From Sinomonas mesophila (GTDB lineage Bacteria; Actinomycetota; Actinomycetes; Actinomycetales; Micrococcaceae), in assembly GCF_001999765.1 (NCBI RefSeq), contig NZ_MTIC01000003.1:62001-126000 (forward strand): a stretch of DNA of 64,000 nt, in the 5' to 3' direction. Positions within the stretch are counted from its first letter, which is position 1. Each line of letters begins with the position of its first letter. Positions 9,380 through 40,468 of the stretch are shown here, one piece after another. A model generated the notes under the pieces. It was not told the DNA's origin. It made no database searches and saw only the letters and a list, made by a program, of their open reading frames with translations. The position numbers were made by a program, and so were the translations under genes.

Positions 9380-9388
9380 GCGGTGCTG

Positions 9389-9449
9389 GAGGTGACCCCG
9401 GATCGCAGGGAGGTGACCCCGGATCGCTGGGAGGTGACCCCGCATCGTT
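9389..9449 (+). repeat. 21-bp tandem repeat, 3 units
   Basis: Three units with the core GGAGGTGACCCCGGATCG at a 21-bp period. Same family as the arrays at 19827, 20838, 33346 and 40262. It lies between hsp20 and the kinase gene at 9508. Confidence 0.9.
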
Positions 9450-11915: not shown

Positions 11916-12003
11916 GCCGTCAGTCTAGGCAGGCCGGTTAGGATGGTCGATGCTCTCCGGCGCGCACAGCAGCCCAGCCGGGGACCGATCAACTAGGAGT
12001 GAC

Positions 12004-13089
12004 GTGTCAGAGAAGAAGATCAAAGTCGCCATCGTCGGCGTGGGCAACTGCGCCGCCTCCCTCGTGCAGGGCGTCCACTACTACCGTGACGCCGACCCGG
12101 CGGACACCGTCCCGGGCCTCATGCACGTCGAGTTCGGCGACTACCACGTGGGCGATATCGAGTTCGTCGCGGCGTTCGACGTCGACGGCAAGAAGGTCGG
12201 CTTCGACCTGGCCGAGGCGATCGTCTCGAGCGAGAACAACACGATCTCGATCGCCGAGGTCCCGCCCACGGGCGTCACGGTCCAGCGCGGGCACACCCTC
12301 GACGGCCTCGGCCGCTACTACCGCGAGACGATCGAGGAGTCGGTCCTCGAACCGGTCGACGTCGTCGCGGCCCTCCGCGAGGCCGAGGCCGACGTGCTCG
12401 TGTGCTACCTGCCCGTCGGCAGCGACGAGGCCGCGAAGTTCTACGCCCAGGCCGCGATTGACGCGGGCGTCGCGTTCGTCAACGCGCTGCCCGTCTTCAT
12501 CGCGAGCGTCCCGGAGTGGGCCGAGAAGTTCCGGGCCGCGGGCGTGCCGATCGTCGGCGACGACATCAAGAGCCAGATCGGCGCGACCATCACCCACCGC
12601 GTCCTCGCGAAGCTGTTCGAGGACCGCGGCGTGACCGTCGACCGGACGTACCAGCTCAACGTCGGCGGCAACATGGACTTCAAGAACATGCTCGAGCGCG
12701 ACCGCCTCGAGTCCAAGAAGGTCTCCAAGACGCAGGCCGTGACCTCCAACGTCGAGGCCGAGCTCGCCGAGCGCGACGTGCACATCGGCCCGTCCGACTA
12801 CGTCCAGTGGCTCGACGACCGCAAGTGGGCGTTCGTGCGCCTCGAGGGCCGCAACTTCGGCGATGCCCCCGTCTCGCTCGAGTACAAGCTCGAGGTCTGG
12901 GACTCGCCCAACTCCGCGGGCGTGATCATCGACGCGATCCGCGCGGCGAAGATCGGCCTCGACCGCGGCATCGGCGGCCCGCTCACGTCCCCGAGCGCCT
13001 ACTTCATGAAGTCCCCGCCGGAGCAGAAGGCCGACGACGTGGCCCGCGCCGACGTCGAGGCCTTCATCCGCGGCGAGCGGGAGCGCTGA
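12004..13089 (+). CDS. ino1: Inositol-3-phosphate synthase Ino1
   Basis: Converts D-glucose 6-phosphate to 1D-myo-inositol 3-phosphate with NAD+ as internal redox cofactor. In actinobacteria the product feeds mycothiol (through MshA, at 18534 here) and phosphatidylinositol. The 361-aa protein starts [19 protein letters not shown] with the NAD-binding GxGNCA motif. Further actinobacterial Ino1 motifs are [55 protein letters not shown] and [11 protein letters not shown]. The GTG is chosen because AGGAG lies 4 nt upstream and homologues begin here. No operon partner; a convergent palindrome-flanked gene follows. Confidence 0.95.
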
Positions 13090-13116: not shown

Positions 13117-13177
13117 AACGCCGCATCGCAACACGCTGTTATGAGATCTCCTTTTCGGCGTGTTGCGATGCGGCGTT
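13117..13177. repeat. 61-bp palindromic element P, copy 1
   Basis: Perfect 20-bp inverted repeat AACGCCGCATCGCAACACGC / GCGTGTTGCGATGCGGCGTT around a 21-nt loop (13137-13157) containing TTATGA. The element covers the last 12 codons and the TAA stop of the minus-strand gene 13139-14131. Copies 2 and 3 lie at 14196 and 15834. By the TTATGA in the loop this copy is in + orientation. Confidence 0.97.
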
Positions 13178-14131
13178 TGGCTTGAGGCGGACGACGCCGG
13201 GCTGCGGCAGGGCCCCTCGGCCCACCAGGGCGTCGCGCAGGCGCCTGACGGTGCGGTCGAACCCGTTCGCGAGGTCCTTCCTGGTGGCCTTGATGAGCAG
13301 CCAGTCCGCATCGGTGAACTGGGCGTCGCGCTCGACGTCCCGCCACTGCTGTTCGGCGGTGAGGTGGTGCTCGCCCTCGTACTGGAGGCCCACGCGCACG
13401 CTGCGGTAGCCGGCGTCCGCCGTCGGCGACCAGGGATCATCCGGCCGCAGCGCGATCTGGAGCTCGGGCTCGGGAAGACCGGCATCCACGATGGCGAGTC
13501 TCAGCTTGGTCTCTGGGACGGAGTCCGCGCCGACGCGCATGAGCTCAAGAGCGGCGCGGGCCTTCCGGATCCCCTGGAGGTTCGGGTGGCGGCCCACCAG
13601 GAGGCGGAGGCCCGCGACTGTGTCCAGCGGCGCCGACCGGCCCTCGAGCTCGGGCCGGGGCCGGCGGATGAGGTGGTCGCCGAGGGCGACGAGGTCAGGG
13701 AGCGGGAGCCTCCGCGCCAGATCCAGCCACGTCCGGCCTGGTGTTGCCACGGGAACACCCGAGATCTCGGTGAGCTCCTCGGCGAAGGCCGTGACGTTGT
13801 GCGCAATCAGGCCCATGCGGCGGGACTGGGGCAGGGCCCGCGGCCGGCTCACGTGCAGCGCCGCGTCGAGGTCCATCCACGGCGGGACCGGGAGACCGTG
13901 CAGCGCGGCCGCGGACTCGTGCGAGACCCAGGCGCCCGGGCTCGCCGCGCAGACCGCACGTGCGAGCGCGAGGACGGGCACGTCGTCGTGCGCCGGCGTG
14001 TACAGCCCGTGGCTGAGCCGCTCGAGGTCGCCGGCTCGGAGCCTCGTCGGCGTGAGCCCAGCGAGGCGCGCCTCGGCGCTCGTGAAGGGGCCTTCGCCGA
14101 GACCCTCCGGAAGGGGAGCGGGTGTGCGCAT
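13139..14131 (-). CDS. Solo AbiEi-like / PD-(D/E)XK (DUF559-type) nuclease-like protein A
   Basis: 330-aa protein. The N-terminal part (about 1-125) resembles AbiEi-type antitoxins: FTSAEARLAGLTPTRLRAGDLERLSHGLYTP as a winged helix, then HESAAALHGLPVPP and VPVATPGRTWLDLARRLP. The C-terminal part (about 200-290) resembles a Vsr/DUF559 nuclease: E207 in PETKLRLAIVDAGL, D239 in TADAGY, E252 and E254 in GLQYEGEHH, and WLLIKATRKDL. No toxin partner is adjacent. The last 12 residues, NAASQHAEKEIS, are encoded by palindrome P copy 1, and copy 2 lies upstream, so the gene forms a cassette. The same design is seen at 25482. Activity is unproven. The start ATG has no clear ribosome site. Confidence 0.8.
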   Translation of the reverse strand: MRTPAPLPEGLGEGPFTSAEARLAGLTPTRLRAGDLERLSHGLYTPAHDDVPVLALARAVCAASPGAWVSHESAAALHGLPVPPWMDLDAALHVSRPRALPQSRRMGLIAHNVTAFAEELTEISGVPVATPGRTWLDLARRLPLPDLVALGDHLIRRPRPELEGRSAPLDTVAGLRLLVGRHPNLQGIRKARAALELMRVGADSVPETKLRLAIVDAGLPEPELQIALRPDDPWSPTADAGYRSVRVGLQYEGEHHLTAEQQWRDVERDAQFTDADWLLIKATRKDLANGFDRTVRRLRDALVGRGALPQPGVVRLKPNAASQHAEKEIS

Positions 14132-14170
14132 GCGCCCATGGTGCCCGAGAACGGACGGGGCCGTCGGGAG

Positions 14171-14179
14171 TTATCCACA
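14171..14179 (+). promoter_or_regulatory. Perfect DnaA-box 9-mer TTATCCACA
   Basis: Identical to the consensus DnaA box. It lies 40 nt upstream of nuclease gene A and 16 nt inside palindrome copy 2. The other copy noticed, at 25423, is in the same relative place before the sister gene. Confidence 0.6.
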
Positions 14180-14195
14180 GCCCCCCGTCCCGCCC

Positions 14196-14256
14196 AACGC
14201 CGCATCGCGACACGCTGGAAAGGACCCGTCATAAGGGCGTGTTGCGATGCGGGGTT
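14196..14256. repeat. 61-bp palindromic element P, copy 2 (inverted)
   Basis: Arms AACGCCGCATCGCGACACGC (14196-14215) and GCGTGTTGCGATGCGGGGTT (14237-14256) with two mismatches between them, and a loop of exactly 21 nt. The TTATGA of the loop reads on the minus strand, so copies 1 and 2 flank gene A in inverted orientation. Confidence 0.95.
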
Positions 14257-14264
14257 GTCGGCGG

Positions 14265-14292
14265 ACGACGGCGGGTTCCCACCCGCCGTCGT
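14265..14292. repeat. ACGACGGCGGGT hairpin
   Basis: Perfect 12-bp stem ACGACGGCGGGT / ACCCGCCGTCGT with a TCCC loop. One of several intergenic hairpins in the window with ACGACGGCG/CGCCGTCGT ends. Confidence 0.8.
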
Positions 14293-14435
14293 GCGCCCGC
14301 CTGCGCTGCGTGAGTGGACCCTTGACGGTCCGGAGGCCGGGGCGTAGACCGAAAGGGTCATGGGGCCGTCTCTGGCTGGGGAATCTACGGAGGCGGTCCT
14401 CCACTCGGGTCTCGTGGGCAATTCTGGAGTCTGTC

Positions 14436-19802: not shown

Positions 19803-19826
19803 CCTTACAAGGCTACGGGTCCCGCG

Positions 19827-19910
19827 GAGGTGACCCCGCATCGCAGGGAGGTGACCCCGCATCGTAGGGAGGTGACCCCGCATCGCAGGGAGGTGACCCC
19901 GCATCGGGGT
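19827..19910 (+). repeat. 21-bp tandem repeat, 4 units
   Basis: Four near-identical units of GAGGTGACCCCGCATCGCAG + G, exactly 21 bp apart, just upstream of mshA (which runs away from it) and in the 273-bp gap before the gene at 20076. Apart from this array and a CGCCGTCGTGCGCC motif at 19936, nothing else was recognised in the gap. Confidence 0.93.
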
Positions 19911-20837: not shown

Positions 20838-20902
20838 GAGGTGACCCCGGATCGCAGGGAGGTGACCGGCGGATCGCAGGGAGGTGACCCCGGGTCGTGG
20901 GG
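20838..20902 (+). repeat. 21-bp tandem repeat, 3 units
   Basis: Three GAGGTGACC units (the middle one GAGGTGACCGGCGGATCG, 22 bp), beginning 7 nt after the stop of the SnoaL-like gene. Confidence 0.88.
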
Positions 20903-22136: not shown

Positions 22137-22885
22137 GCGGCGGCCCCGGCCCGGTGCCCGCGGCGCCCGGCGGCTTCGCGTGGGAGATCGCCTTCGCGCC
22201 GGCGACGGCGGAGCAGACCCACGCGATCGGCGCGGCGCTCGCGGGGGTGCTCCGCGCGGGTGACCTCCTCGTGCTCACCGGGGAGCTCGGCGCGGGCAAG
22301 ACGACGCTCACCCAGGGCCTCGGCGAGGGCCTCGGCGTGCGGGCGGGGATCATCTCCCCGACGTTCGTGCTCGTGCGGATCCACCCGAACCTGCCCGACG
22401 GGCCGCGACCCGGCGGACCGGACCTCGTGCACGTCGACGCGTACCGGCTCTCCGGGGCCGGGGAGGTCGACGACCTCGACCTCGAGAACTGGGCAGACAC
22501 CGCCGTGACGGTCGTCGAGTGGGGCCGCGGGCGGGTCGAGCACCTCGCCGAGAGCTGGCTCGACATCGAGCTGCGCCGCCCCGGTGCCCCGGCGCCCGCG
22601 CCCTCGGCCGGGATGGGCCCGCTCGACTTCGACACCGAGGATGACGACGAGCCCCGCCTCATCGTCGTCCGCGCCTTCGGCCCCCGCTGGGCCGCGCACC
22701 CCGAGGTGCACTGGCCCGCCGTCGAGCGCGTCGGCGCCCCTGGGCTCCACGCACCGACGGGCCCCGCCGAGATGGGGTCCCGGGACCGCGAGATGGGGTC
22801 TGGGGACGCCGAAATGGGGTCCCCGGACCGCGAGATGGGGTCCCACGGCGTACACGCCGCCCCGACGAAGGAGGAGGCTCCGTGA
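22133..22885 (+). CDS. tsaE: tRNA t6A ATPase TsaE, with repetitive tail
   Basis: ATPase of the TsaB-TsaD-TsaE complex that makes the t6A37 modification of ANN-decoding tRNAs. Walker A is GELGAGKTTLTQGLGEGLG, then SPTFVLVRIHP, LVHVDAYRL and VTVVEWGRG. At 250 aa it is long for TsaE. From about residue 213 the tail is EMGSRDR-EMGSGDA-EMGSPDR-EMGSHGV, four heptads encoded by a 21-nt tandem repeat. This tail is probably disordered and not part of the enzyme fold. The GTG overlaps the alr stop and the TGA overlaps the tsaB GTG. Confidence 0.93.
   Translation: MSGGPGPVPAAPGGFAWEIAFAPATAEQTHAIGAALAGVLRAGDLLVLTGELGAGKTTLTQGLGEGLGVRAGIISPTFVLVRIHPNLPDGPRPGGPDLVHVDAYRLSGAGEVDDLDLENWADTAVTVVEWGRGRVEHLAESWLDIELRRPGAPAPAPSAGMGPLDFDTEDDDEPRLIVVRAFGPRWAAHPEVHWPAVERVGAPGLHAPTGPAEMGSRDREMGSGDAEMGSPDREMGSHGVHAAPTKEEAP
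22769..22852 (+). repeat. In-frame 21-nt repeat inside tsaE, 4 units
   Basis: Four exact 21-nt units beginning GAGATGGGGTC (22769, 22790, 22811, 22832). The period and the GGGGTC core match the reverse complement of the intergenic 21-bp family. Because 21 is a multiple of 3, the reading frame is kept. Confidence 0.9.
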
Positions 22886-25315: not shown

Positions 25316-25393
25316 CGTCAGAAACTGCACAAGTCAGCACCATTTAGCCGCCGCGGCGGCGGTCGGGCGCGCTGAGTTGTGCAGTTTCTGACG
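25316..25393. repeat. Palindromic element Q, copy 1
   Basis: Inverted arms CGTCAGAAACTGCACAA + GTCAGC (25316-25338) and its near-perfect complement (25371-25393, one mismatch), with a 32-nt GC-rich loop. It lies between tsaD and nuclease gene B. Copy 2 crosses the end of gene B. Confidence 0.95.
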
Positions 25394-25481: not shown

Positions 25482-26390
25482 GTGGACCACGTCGTTGAAT
25501 TCCTTGCCGCGGTCGGTGGAAGTGCCCGGACGGGACAGCTCCTGCGTCACGTCTCCGCCCGGCACCTAGCAATGGCCGTCCGATCCGGTGCCGTCCTCAG
25601 GGCGGGCCAGGGCATGTACGCGCTGAGCGCCTTGGGGGAGGCGGAGCGGCTCGCCCTGACGGGGAGGGCCGTCCTCTTCGGCAGGTCCGCCGCCTTGGCC
25701 CACGGGCTCGGGGTCCTGCACCGGCCCGAGAGCGTCGAGCTGGCCGTCCCGCGAGGGCGCCGCACCAGGAAGGTCCCAGGCACCGTGGTCGCGACGCGAC
25801 TCCTGCCTGCAGCTGACCTCGTCGCCAACGGCGCAGTACAGGCGACGTCGGTGGCACGCACGGTGCTGGACTGCGCCGCCGCGCTGCCATTCGCGGAGGG
25901 GCTGGCCATCGCTGACTCGGCCCTGCGGCTCGGGAAGGTCAGCCCGGACCAGCTTGTCGAGGCGGCGGGCCGGTGGGTGGGACGGAACCGCAGGGCCCAG
26001 CAGAGGGTCCTGCAGGCGATGGACGGGCGTGCATCAAACGCCTTCGAGTCAGGGCTCCGGGCCGCGTGCCTCGAGGCTGGGGTCGTCATGGAGCCGCAGG
26101 TCTGGATCCCCACGGCTCGGGGCGACTACCGCGTCGACCTGGCCAAGCAGTGGGTACTCGTCGCCGAGGCGGACAGCTTCGAATGGCACGGCGGGCGCGA
26201 TGCCCTGCACCGGGACTGCACGAGGTACAACGAGCTCGTTCGTGCGGGCTGCACCGTGCTCAGGTTCAGCTGGGAGCACGTCATGTTCGAGCGGGCCTGG
26301 ATCGGCGAGGTGGTCTCGGACGTCGAGAGGCGTCTGAAACTGCACAACTCGGAGCGGGAACGGGGCGAAGGCCTGCGCCCAGCCGCATGA
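25482..26390 (+). CDS. Solo AbiEi-like / Vsr-like (DUF559-type) nuclease-like protein B
   Basis: 302-aa protein with the same two-part plan as the gene at 13139 but little sequence identity by eye. N-terminal AbiEi-like winged helix: GSARTGQLLRHVSARHLAMAVRSGAVLRAGQGMYAL, then ATSVARTVLDCAAALP. C-terminal Vsr-like fold: E189 in NAFESGLRAACLEAG, D219 in YRVDLA, E229 and D231 in VAEADSFEWHGGRD, and VLRFSWEHVMF. No toxin partner is adjacent. The last 19 codons and the TGA lie within palindrome Q copy 2. GTG start, upstream DnaA box. Function is unknown; a nuclease or antitoxin-derived DNA-binding role is possible. Confidence 0.82.
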   Translation: MDHVVEFLAAVGGSARTGQLLRHVSARHLAMAVRSGAVLRAGQGMYALSALGEAERLALTGRAVLFGRSAALAHGLGVLHRPESVELAVPRGRRTRKVPGTVVATRLLPAADLVANGAVQATSVARTVLDCAAALPFAEGLAIADSALRLGKVSPDQLVEAAGRWVGRNRRAQQRVLQAMDGRASNAFESGLRAACLEAGVVMEPQVWIPTARGDYRVDLAKQWVLVAEADSFEWHGGRDALHRDCTRYNELVRAGCTVLRFSWEHVMFERAWIGEVVSDVERRLKLHNSERERGEGLRPAA

Positions 26391-26407
26391 GTTGTGCAGT
26401 TTCTGAC
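26332..26407. repeat. Palindromic element Q, copy 2
   Basis: Arms GTCTGAAACTGCACAACTC (26332-26350) and GAGTTGTGCAGTTTCTGAC (26389-26407), one mismatch, 38-nt loop. The arms match copy 1; the loops differ. The TGA stop of gene B (26388-26390) touches the right arm. Confidence 0.95.
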
Positions 26408-33334: not shown

Positions 33335-33345
33335 CCCTCCGGCCC

Positions 33346-33495
33346 GGGGTCACCTCCCAAGGTTGAGGGGTCACGTCTCAAGGTTGCGAGGTCACGTCTC
33401 AAGCTTGCGGGGTCACAATGACCCCGCAACGCTGGGAGCTGACCCCGCAACGCTGGGAGGTGACCCCGCAACGCTGGGAGGTGACCCCGCAACCC
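33346..33495. repeat. 21-bp repeat array with inverted halves
   Basis: Left half: four GGGGTCAC/GAGGTCAC units read in reverse sense; right half: four GACCCCGCAACGCTGGGAG units in forward sense, at 21-bp spacing. The centre is GCGGGGTCA-CAA-TGACCCCGC. The whole could form a very long hairpin. It lies between the convergent genes at 32504 and 33516. Confidence 0.93.
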
Positions 33496-40261: not shown

Positions 40262-40468
40262 GGGGGTCACCTCCCAAGGTTGCGGGGTCACCTTCCAAGG
40301 TTGCGGGGTCACGTCTCAGGGATGCGGGGTCACGTCTCAGGGACGCGGGGTCATTGTTAGGACAATGACCCCGCAACGCAGGGAGGTGACCCTGCAACGC
40401 AGGGAGGTGACCCTGCAACGCAGGGAGGTGACCCCCCATCGCAGGGAGGTGACCCCGCAACGCAGGGC
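40262..40468. repeat. Large 21-bp repeat array with inverted halves
   Basis: About four reverse-sense GGGGTCAC units (40262-40350), a perfect palindrome GCGGGGTCATTGT-TAGG-ACAATGACCCCGC at 40345-40374, then five forward units of GACCC(C/T)GCAACGCAGGGAG at 21-bp spacing. Same layout as the array at 33346. It lies between guaB and the siderophore-binding gene, which converge. Confidence 0.94.

Follow-up and report, generated by a model that had tools for sequence, protein, structure and literature searches.

Palindromes that track a family of AbiEi-like nuclease genes in Sinomonas and other Micrococcaceae

A gene for a nuclease-like protein that lies between two inverted copies of one palindrome raises the question of whether gene and palindrome belong together, and if so, what keeps them paired. 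The window, a 64,000-nucleotide stretch of a Sinomonas genome (Micrococcaceae; G000:C2:62001-126000, G000 being the window's own genome), contains gene A at 13139-14131 on the minus strand, which encodes a protein of 330 residues with an AbiEi-like N-terminal domain and a Vsr/EDxHD (PD-(D/E)XK-type) nuclease domain. The first copy of palindrome P (P1, 13117-13177; palindromes and hairpins are given without strand) consists of 20-bp arms (AACGCCGCATCGCAACACGC) and a 21-nt loop, and the second (P2, 14195-14257) lies upstream of the gene. A reading of the sequence alone (the sequence-only reading) had placed gene A between inverted copies of P, and the loops, TTATGA in P1 and TCATAA in P2, bear this out. 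Loop orientation is clear for P1 and P2 only, many other P copies having quasi-palindromic loops. The stretch 13139-13177, within P1, encodes the C-terminus NAASQHAEKEIS*, so that P1 was also correctly read as supplying the final 12 codons of gene A and its stop. When folded as single strands and compared with dinucleotide shuffles, the three P copies in the window have z values of -8.9, -5.3, and -6.4.

The site into which cassette A was inserted can be seen in relatives. It is the gap 3' of a plus-strand gene at 11950-13089, which from our own reading of the sequence we take to be inositol-1-phosphate synthase-like. Six other Sinomonas genomes (G003, G006, G007, G010, G011, and G012) have an empty site made up of the stop of this upstream gene, the gene's own intergenic hairpin, and the FAD-oxidase gene. 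The terminator-like hairpin at 14260-14297 of the window lies directly 3' of the upstream gene in relatives without the cassette, and in G000 the unit P1-gene A-P2 is inserted between that stop and the hairpin. Cassette A occupies the same place in G004 (S. atrocyanea DS1015, the same sequence as locus L177). By eye, no target-site duplication was seen at cassette A, whose outer ends carry no obvious direct repeat, and no excision product was seen. At the same locus in G013, G008, and G001 (L142, L144, L145), pairs of operator-like palindromes TGGGATCCCA flank a promoter-like stretch about 90-300 bp behind the inositol-phosphate synthase-like gene.

About 11 kb from cassette A, a second nuclease-like gene had been described as having the same geometry with an unrelated palindrome, and our analysis agrees. 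Gene B (25482-26390, plus strand) encodes 302 residues with an AbiEi-like domain and an MTES_1575/DUF559-like nuclease domain. One copy of palindrome Q lies upstream of it (25316-25393; left arm CGTCAGAAACTGCACAAGTCAGC) and the other (26332-26407) covers its last 59 nt including the stop codon, with folding z values of -7.9 and -6.8 against dinucleotide shuffles.

The assignment of the genes as nuclease-like is supported by Pfam and PADLOC matches and by fold comparison. Both genes match the AbiEi models of PADLOC, gene A with an E-value of 3e-15 and gene B with one of 1.5e-15, and the nuclease domain of most family members matches the Pfam models of the MTES_1575 and DUF559 REase-like proteins, for which no palindromic partner is described in the open-licence literature. 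E207, H256, and D265 of gene A are invariant among 39 sequences, in at least 90% of which D239 is conserved. For gene B, E189, D219, H236, and D245 are invariant; these E-D-H-D residues may have catalytic roles. The AlphaFold2 model of protein A (pLDDT 91) finds its best fold match in 3r3p, the catalytic domain of the homing endonuclease I-Bth0305I (probability 1.00, TM 0.73 on the target), with a modest E-value of 0.04. The model of protein B, built from 8 sequences with a pLDDT of 74 and used as support only, matches AbiEi (6y8q), Rv2827c (1zel), and I-Bth0305I (3r3p, probability 0.99). A sequence profile search of solved structures returned only 3hrl, with an E-value of 0.06.

Each half of the protein has known relatives, and the family differs from both of them. 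For I-Bth0305I, a dimer bound to a target nearly 60 bp long has been reported (PMC3943268). The family described here resembles these EDxHD, Vsr-like homing endonucleases in the fold of the nuclease domain, in the E-D-x-H-D pattern, and in a long target, as reported for the I-Bth0305I dimer. Unlike them, it is not intron- or intein-borne. Where they have a single conserved target gene and phage-type DNA-binding modules, it has dozens of palindromes in the genome and a DNA-binding domain that is AbiEi-like. With the AbiEi antitoxins of type IV toxin-antitoxin systems (S. agalactiae AbiEi, M. tuberculosis Rv2827c) it shares the N-terminal domain, by profile and by fold, and upstream inverted repeats, but it adds a nuclease domain at the C-terminus, a second hairpin at the 3' end of the gene, and dispersed copies. 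The cassettes neighbour the inositol-phosphate synthase-like gene, the FAD oxidase, tsaD, and a gene for a 3-dmu-9_3-mt protein, and no AbiEii (DUF1814) toxin gene is found among the genes adjoining cassettes A and B.

Homologs of genes A and B were collected from 16 Sinomonas genomes and, with gene A as the query, as the best 80 loci from 84,980 species genomes, giving 118 non-redundant loci; the sampled loci are nearly all from Micrococcaceae. Strong hairpins were identified upstream of 56 of these loci, downstream of 60, and on both sides of 45, whereas the 165 neighbouring genes at the same loci have 2 upstream, 19 downstream, and none on both sides (Fisher p about 2e-20 for both sides, a p-value that, like the others here, is indicative only because the loci are related to each other). 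Random windows contain strong hairpins at a rate of 0.8%. The supposition that such pairing is no accident thus holds, with two-sided hairpins at 45/118 family loci against 0/165 neighbouring genes. The upstream palindrome lies 43-102 bp ahead of the start codon. Further clades of the family have a hairpin on one side only, upstream in L083, L093, L094, L096, and L098 (e.g. AAAGCCCGGCCGG) and downstream in L082, L087, L207, and L212 (e.g. GTGAGTGAGCAGCAGGCGCGAGT).

Palindrome and protein had further been proposed to diverge together as a general system, with a test of their co-variation as the way to check it. That test was run on the 45 two-sided loci, and the hairpin tracks the protein: hairpin similarity correlates with protein identity (Mantel r 0.77, 0/999 permutations), and in 45/45 loci the upstream and downstream hairpins match each other above the 95th percentile of unrelated pairs. 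Between loci, hairpin similarity does not exceed background when the proteins share less than 50% identity; it rises at 50-60% and is high above. Each protein clade that bears palindromes has one of its own: GCCGCATC.. in A1, CATCGAYTGCTCCGTAASTGTCGTT in A2, AAATGTTGGCTTGAGCAGGGT in A3, GCAACGCGGGGTCACTTATGGCCC in Arthrobacter, AGCGTCTCGGGATGTGGG and GTAAAGAAACTGCCGGAACT in Nesterenkonia, ACGCTGTCCCCGGATT in Zafaria, and CAAACTTGGGCGGGATAG in L241, among others. The proposal is thus supported in each of the tests applied, with the qualification that at least two large clades mostly lack palindromes. The extension of the inverted repeats into the 3' coding end is true of cassettes A and B but is lineage-specific; in Arthrobacter, the repeat usually begins 2-6 bp beyond the stop.

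Palindromes are missing from about 40% of the loci that were collected. At least the Sinomonas '...RAA' and the Arthrobacter '...SGFA' clades mostly lack flanking palindromes, and the palindrome-less clades retain the catalytic residues, which suggests that the nuclease has some life without palindromes. In the '...SGFA' clade of Arthrobacter and relatives (L182, L184, L188, L194, L200), short GACGCTCCCTCACC hairpins are observed behind the gene, and these may be terminators or a reduced palindrome.

The co-variation resides mostly in one part of the protein. Residues 21-120 are the best predictor of palindrome similarity. The N-terminal domain remains correlated with the palindrome when the nuclease domain is controlled (partial r 0.59-0.67; 0.59 with a quadratic control, 0/999 permutations), whereas the partial r of the nuclease domain with the N-terminal domain controlled is 0.02-0.03. 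Presumably, the N-terminal domain reads the palindrome and the C-terminal domain cuts.

Beyond the cassettes, palindrome P is a dispersed element. The whole-palindrome pattern finds 33 perfect copies in G000, 7 in G004 (where the variant specific to that genome is present), 1 in G006, and 0 in the 13 others of the 16 Sinomonas genomes, and the reversed pattern, used as a control, finds 0 copies in any genome. All 35 P copies that were read are of equal length with a 49-nt core, arms of CAACGCCGCATCGCRACACGC in G000, and a variable 21-nt middle; outside the arms, the left flank is rich in C and the right flank in G. The inner loop sequence differs from one solo copy to the next, and yet the variable middle, which forms the inner stem, still pairs above chance (210/350 versus 179 +/- 7). 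A coding stop lies within 80 bp in 36/41 copies, mostly at 0-26 bp, with 11 copies in convergent gaps and only 3 in divergent ones. The third copy in the window (P3, 15834-15894) is a solo copy of this kind, lying between convergent genes at 20 bp past the FAD-oxidase stop codon, and no P is present in the matching gap of the relatives checked (G003, G006, G007, G012). The A2-type palindromes behave alike, 19/21 copies having a coding stop within 80 bp, again mostly at 0-26 bp.

Stable hairpins directly behind stop codons might simply be transcription terminators or stabilisers of mRNA 3' ends, the association with a nuclease gene being secondary. We regard this as very improbable, because the palindromes have no T-run and loops of mostly 17-38 nt, because their presence depends on the cognate gene and their sequence follows the clade of that gene in trans, and because neighbouring genes, 19/165 of which do have a downstream hairpin, show 0 upstream/downstream pairs. 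The position behind stop codons itself also fits a terminator or 3'-end role. When elements are oriented by the upstream gene, G.U mismatches, expected of an RNA hairpin, number 9 and A.C mismatches, expected of a DNA hairpin, 4, which are small counts.

The dependence on the gene is seen for three palindrome types. Clade A1 genes occur among the 16 Sinomonas genomes in G000 and G004 only, the genomes with 33 and 7 P copies. A2-type palindromes number 9, 10, and 11 in G007, G008, and G013, the only three genomes with a clade A2 gene; a few further matches to the A2 pattern elsewhere belong to a different palindrome family. B-type palindromes are present in 10/11 genomes with gene B, G004 being the sole exception, and in 0/5 without it. 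The combined p for the association of gene presence with palindrome presence is about 1e-5.

Gene B allows the turnover of the palindromes to be followed, as its locus behind tsaD is constant in 11 Sinomonas genomes/species. The two palindromes flanking it have changed together and read GTCWGAAACTGCACAA in G000 and G007, GTCCCGYCAGGCACAATT in G006/G011/G012, and GGGCATATCGACACAA in G002/G003. The outer arms of the dispersed B copies match the variant of their own genome at 8.4/10 bases in G000, 8.6 in G002/G003, and 9.0 in G011, versus about 3/10 for the variants of other genomes; the match to the own variant is weaker in G006, G013, and G014. Local duplication or linkage alone can hardly account for such switching in cis and in trans. 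At one dispersed B site, G002 has an intact element, G003 and G004 have degraded ones, G006 has a variant, and G005, G007, G011, and G012 have none. Some orthologous dispersed copies are common to the sister species G002 and G003, which indicates that turnover is slow. In G004 (L110/L112), gene B is split over two frames and the B palindromes are decayed, none being intact; in G013 (L111), gene B contains stops, yet 12 B-type palindromes are kept.

Gain or loss of a whole cassette, as the empty site documents, together with a nuclease domain closest to a homing endonuclease and flanking palindromes that are homologous in either orientation, could point to a homing cassette that is freestanding and uses palindromes as its insertion sites. 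The solo copies would then be landing pads, or scars of a recombination between the two flanking palindromes that deleted the gene, comparable to solo LTRs. This explanation is unlikely in our judgement, since each genome has 0-1 cassette per palindrome family against up to 33 solo copies, the inner loop differs for each solo copy, and gene B stayed fixed at one locus across the genus while the solo copies turned over. Furthermore, no remnant of gene A was found between two P copies at G000:C12:36375-37290. The reading frame between these two copies (L163 1476-2388) is presumably SnoaL-like, by our own reading, and a paralog of it, about 77% identical, lies near a P copy at G000:C11:96430.

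The arms of the palindromes carry compensated changes. At stem positions 8-9 of A2, 46/60 are paired versus 30.4 +/- 3.3 when shuffled. Together with the pairing in the inner stem of P, this implies that the strands pair at some stage. The termini of P and A2 are CAACGCC..GGCGTTG and CATCG..CGATG. These changes bear on a further alternative, in which the protein acts as a regulator of the AbiEi kind, whether or not it is also an active nuclease. The upstream palindrome would be its autoregulatory operator and the dispersed copies further sites of the regulon, and the co-evolution would be that of a regulator with its sites. The AbiEi-like N-terminal domain, its power to predict the palindrome, and the position of the upstream palindrome before the start codon all agree with an operator, and the promoters of AbiEi antitoxin genes contain 23-bp inverted repeats to which the antitoxins themselves bind (PMC7319586). 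A duplex operator, however, needs no paired changes at variable arm positions, the dispersed copies lie behind stops and not at promoters (36/41 P, 19/21 A2, with 3 P in divergent gaps), and neither the matching downstream palindrome nor the gain of 33 sites in one species is explained. A regulon of this kind consequently appears doubtful to us, to about the same degree as the homing cassette.

The closest parallel is the REP/RAYT system (TnpA-REP, REPtron, REPIN) of Proteobacteria, in which a gene lies between two inverted palindrome copies, cognate palindromes are dispersed in intergenic space with an abundance tied to the gene, palindrome and protein co-diverge, and complementary changes keep the stem (PMC2817692; PMC8266576). 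The family described here shares the flanking by two palindromes of the same kind, inverted as far as orientation is clear (P1/P2 only), the dispersal of cognate palindromes with an abundance that follows the gene, the co-evolution of palindrome and protein, and the stem kept by complementary changes. It differs in its enzyme, which joins an AbiEi-like domain to a Vsr/EDxHD nuclease and does not match the family of Y1 transposases, in the lack of a GTAG-type head at palindromes or flanks, in palindromes of 60-80 nt with long loops against about 20-40 nt for REP, and in copy numbers (about 2-33) below typical REP numbers. The anatomy and co-evolution are as described for RAYTs (PMC2817692), and the palindromes might thus be ordinary REPs spread by a RAYT (Y1 HUH transposase), with the nuclease genes merely among them. 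This is extremely unlikely, because PF01797 (Y1 HUH, IS200/IS605-like) matches neither gene A nor gene B nor anything in the 16 Sinomonas genomes (0/16), the control search being positive in 5/14 reference genomes, and because the palindromes have no constant GTAG head. A RAYT as the driver is rejected for Sinomonas within the sensitivity of the PF01797 model.

The pairing, co-divergence, dispersal, dependence of palindrome on gene, empty site of cassette A, and compensated arm changes, all seen at the level of sequence comparison, are in our view probably best explained by a REP/RAYT-like system built on an unrelated nuclease, in which a gene is paired with a palindrome of about 60-80 bp, two copies of which flank it and further solo copies of which are dispersed behind the stop codons of other genes. 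The N-terminal domain would recognise this palindrome, probably with two protein subunits sitting on the dyad as a dimer, and the nuclease would cut at or beside it in the form of a cruciform, a single-stranded hairpin, or duplex. Host repair or replication might then copy palindromes to new gene 3' ends and keep the copies alike. A dimeric nuclease on a dyad, host copying, and a preference for gene 3' ends would together yield the whole pattern. The palindromes would be mobilised under this explanation, although none was observed to move, and the joining of a new copy is not accounted for by a nuclease on its own. The slow turnover, the catalytic residues kept by palindrome-less clades, the low copy numbers, the modest E-value of the I-Bth0305I match, and the B-type palindromes retained in G013 also count against it.

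The system works like REP without being a member of the REP family, and it would form a separate class if mobilisation by the nuclease is shown. We give roughly even chances to the stronger proposal of a second, independently evolved class of hairpin elements, in which an AbiEi-EDxHD nuclease reads a private palindrome through its N-terminal domain, creates, spreads, and homogenises it throughout the chromosome, and retunes it when the specificity changes, a single gene thereby maintaining all these hairpins in trans. To our knowledge, the Y1 HUH transposases are the one class of enzyme to which REP elements have so far been linked, and a second enzyme would make the spread of REP-like elements testable. 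No prior report was found in the open-licence literature on DUF559, Vsr-like proteins, REP/RAYT, or actinobacterial and Arthrobacter palindromes. If the proposal is true, a gene that keeps a private hairpin population is a convergent strategy, and many multi-copy AbiEi/DUF559-type actinobacterial genes without an assigned function are accounted for. The dozens of natural protein-palindrome pairs are also a ready set for learning how such a nuclease reads DNA.

Two further kinds of repeat were observed. An additional dispersed palindrome family, ACTGCTCCCTGGAGATCGGAACTGA.., is assigned to no gene (G010:C5:39141, G010:C29:142291, G013:C1:70415), and a hairpin similar to it lies upstream of the gene at L193. 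The window also contains tandem arrays of a 21-nt repeat, GGAGGTGACCCCGCATCGCAG or a relative of it, at 9388-9447, 19826-19906, 20838-20897, 22768-22844, 33345-33493, and 40263-40467. At 33345-33493 and 40263-40467, two arrays face each other as long inverted repeats. The repeat unit has CCCCGCATCGCA in common with palindrome P and GTGACCCCGC in common with the Arthrobacter palindromes.
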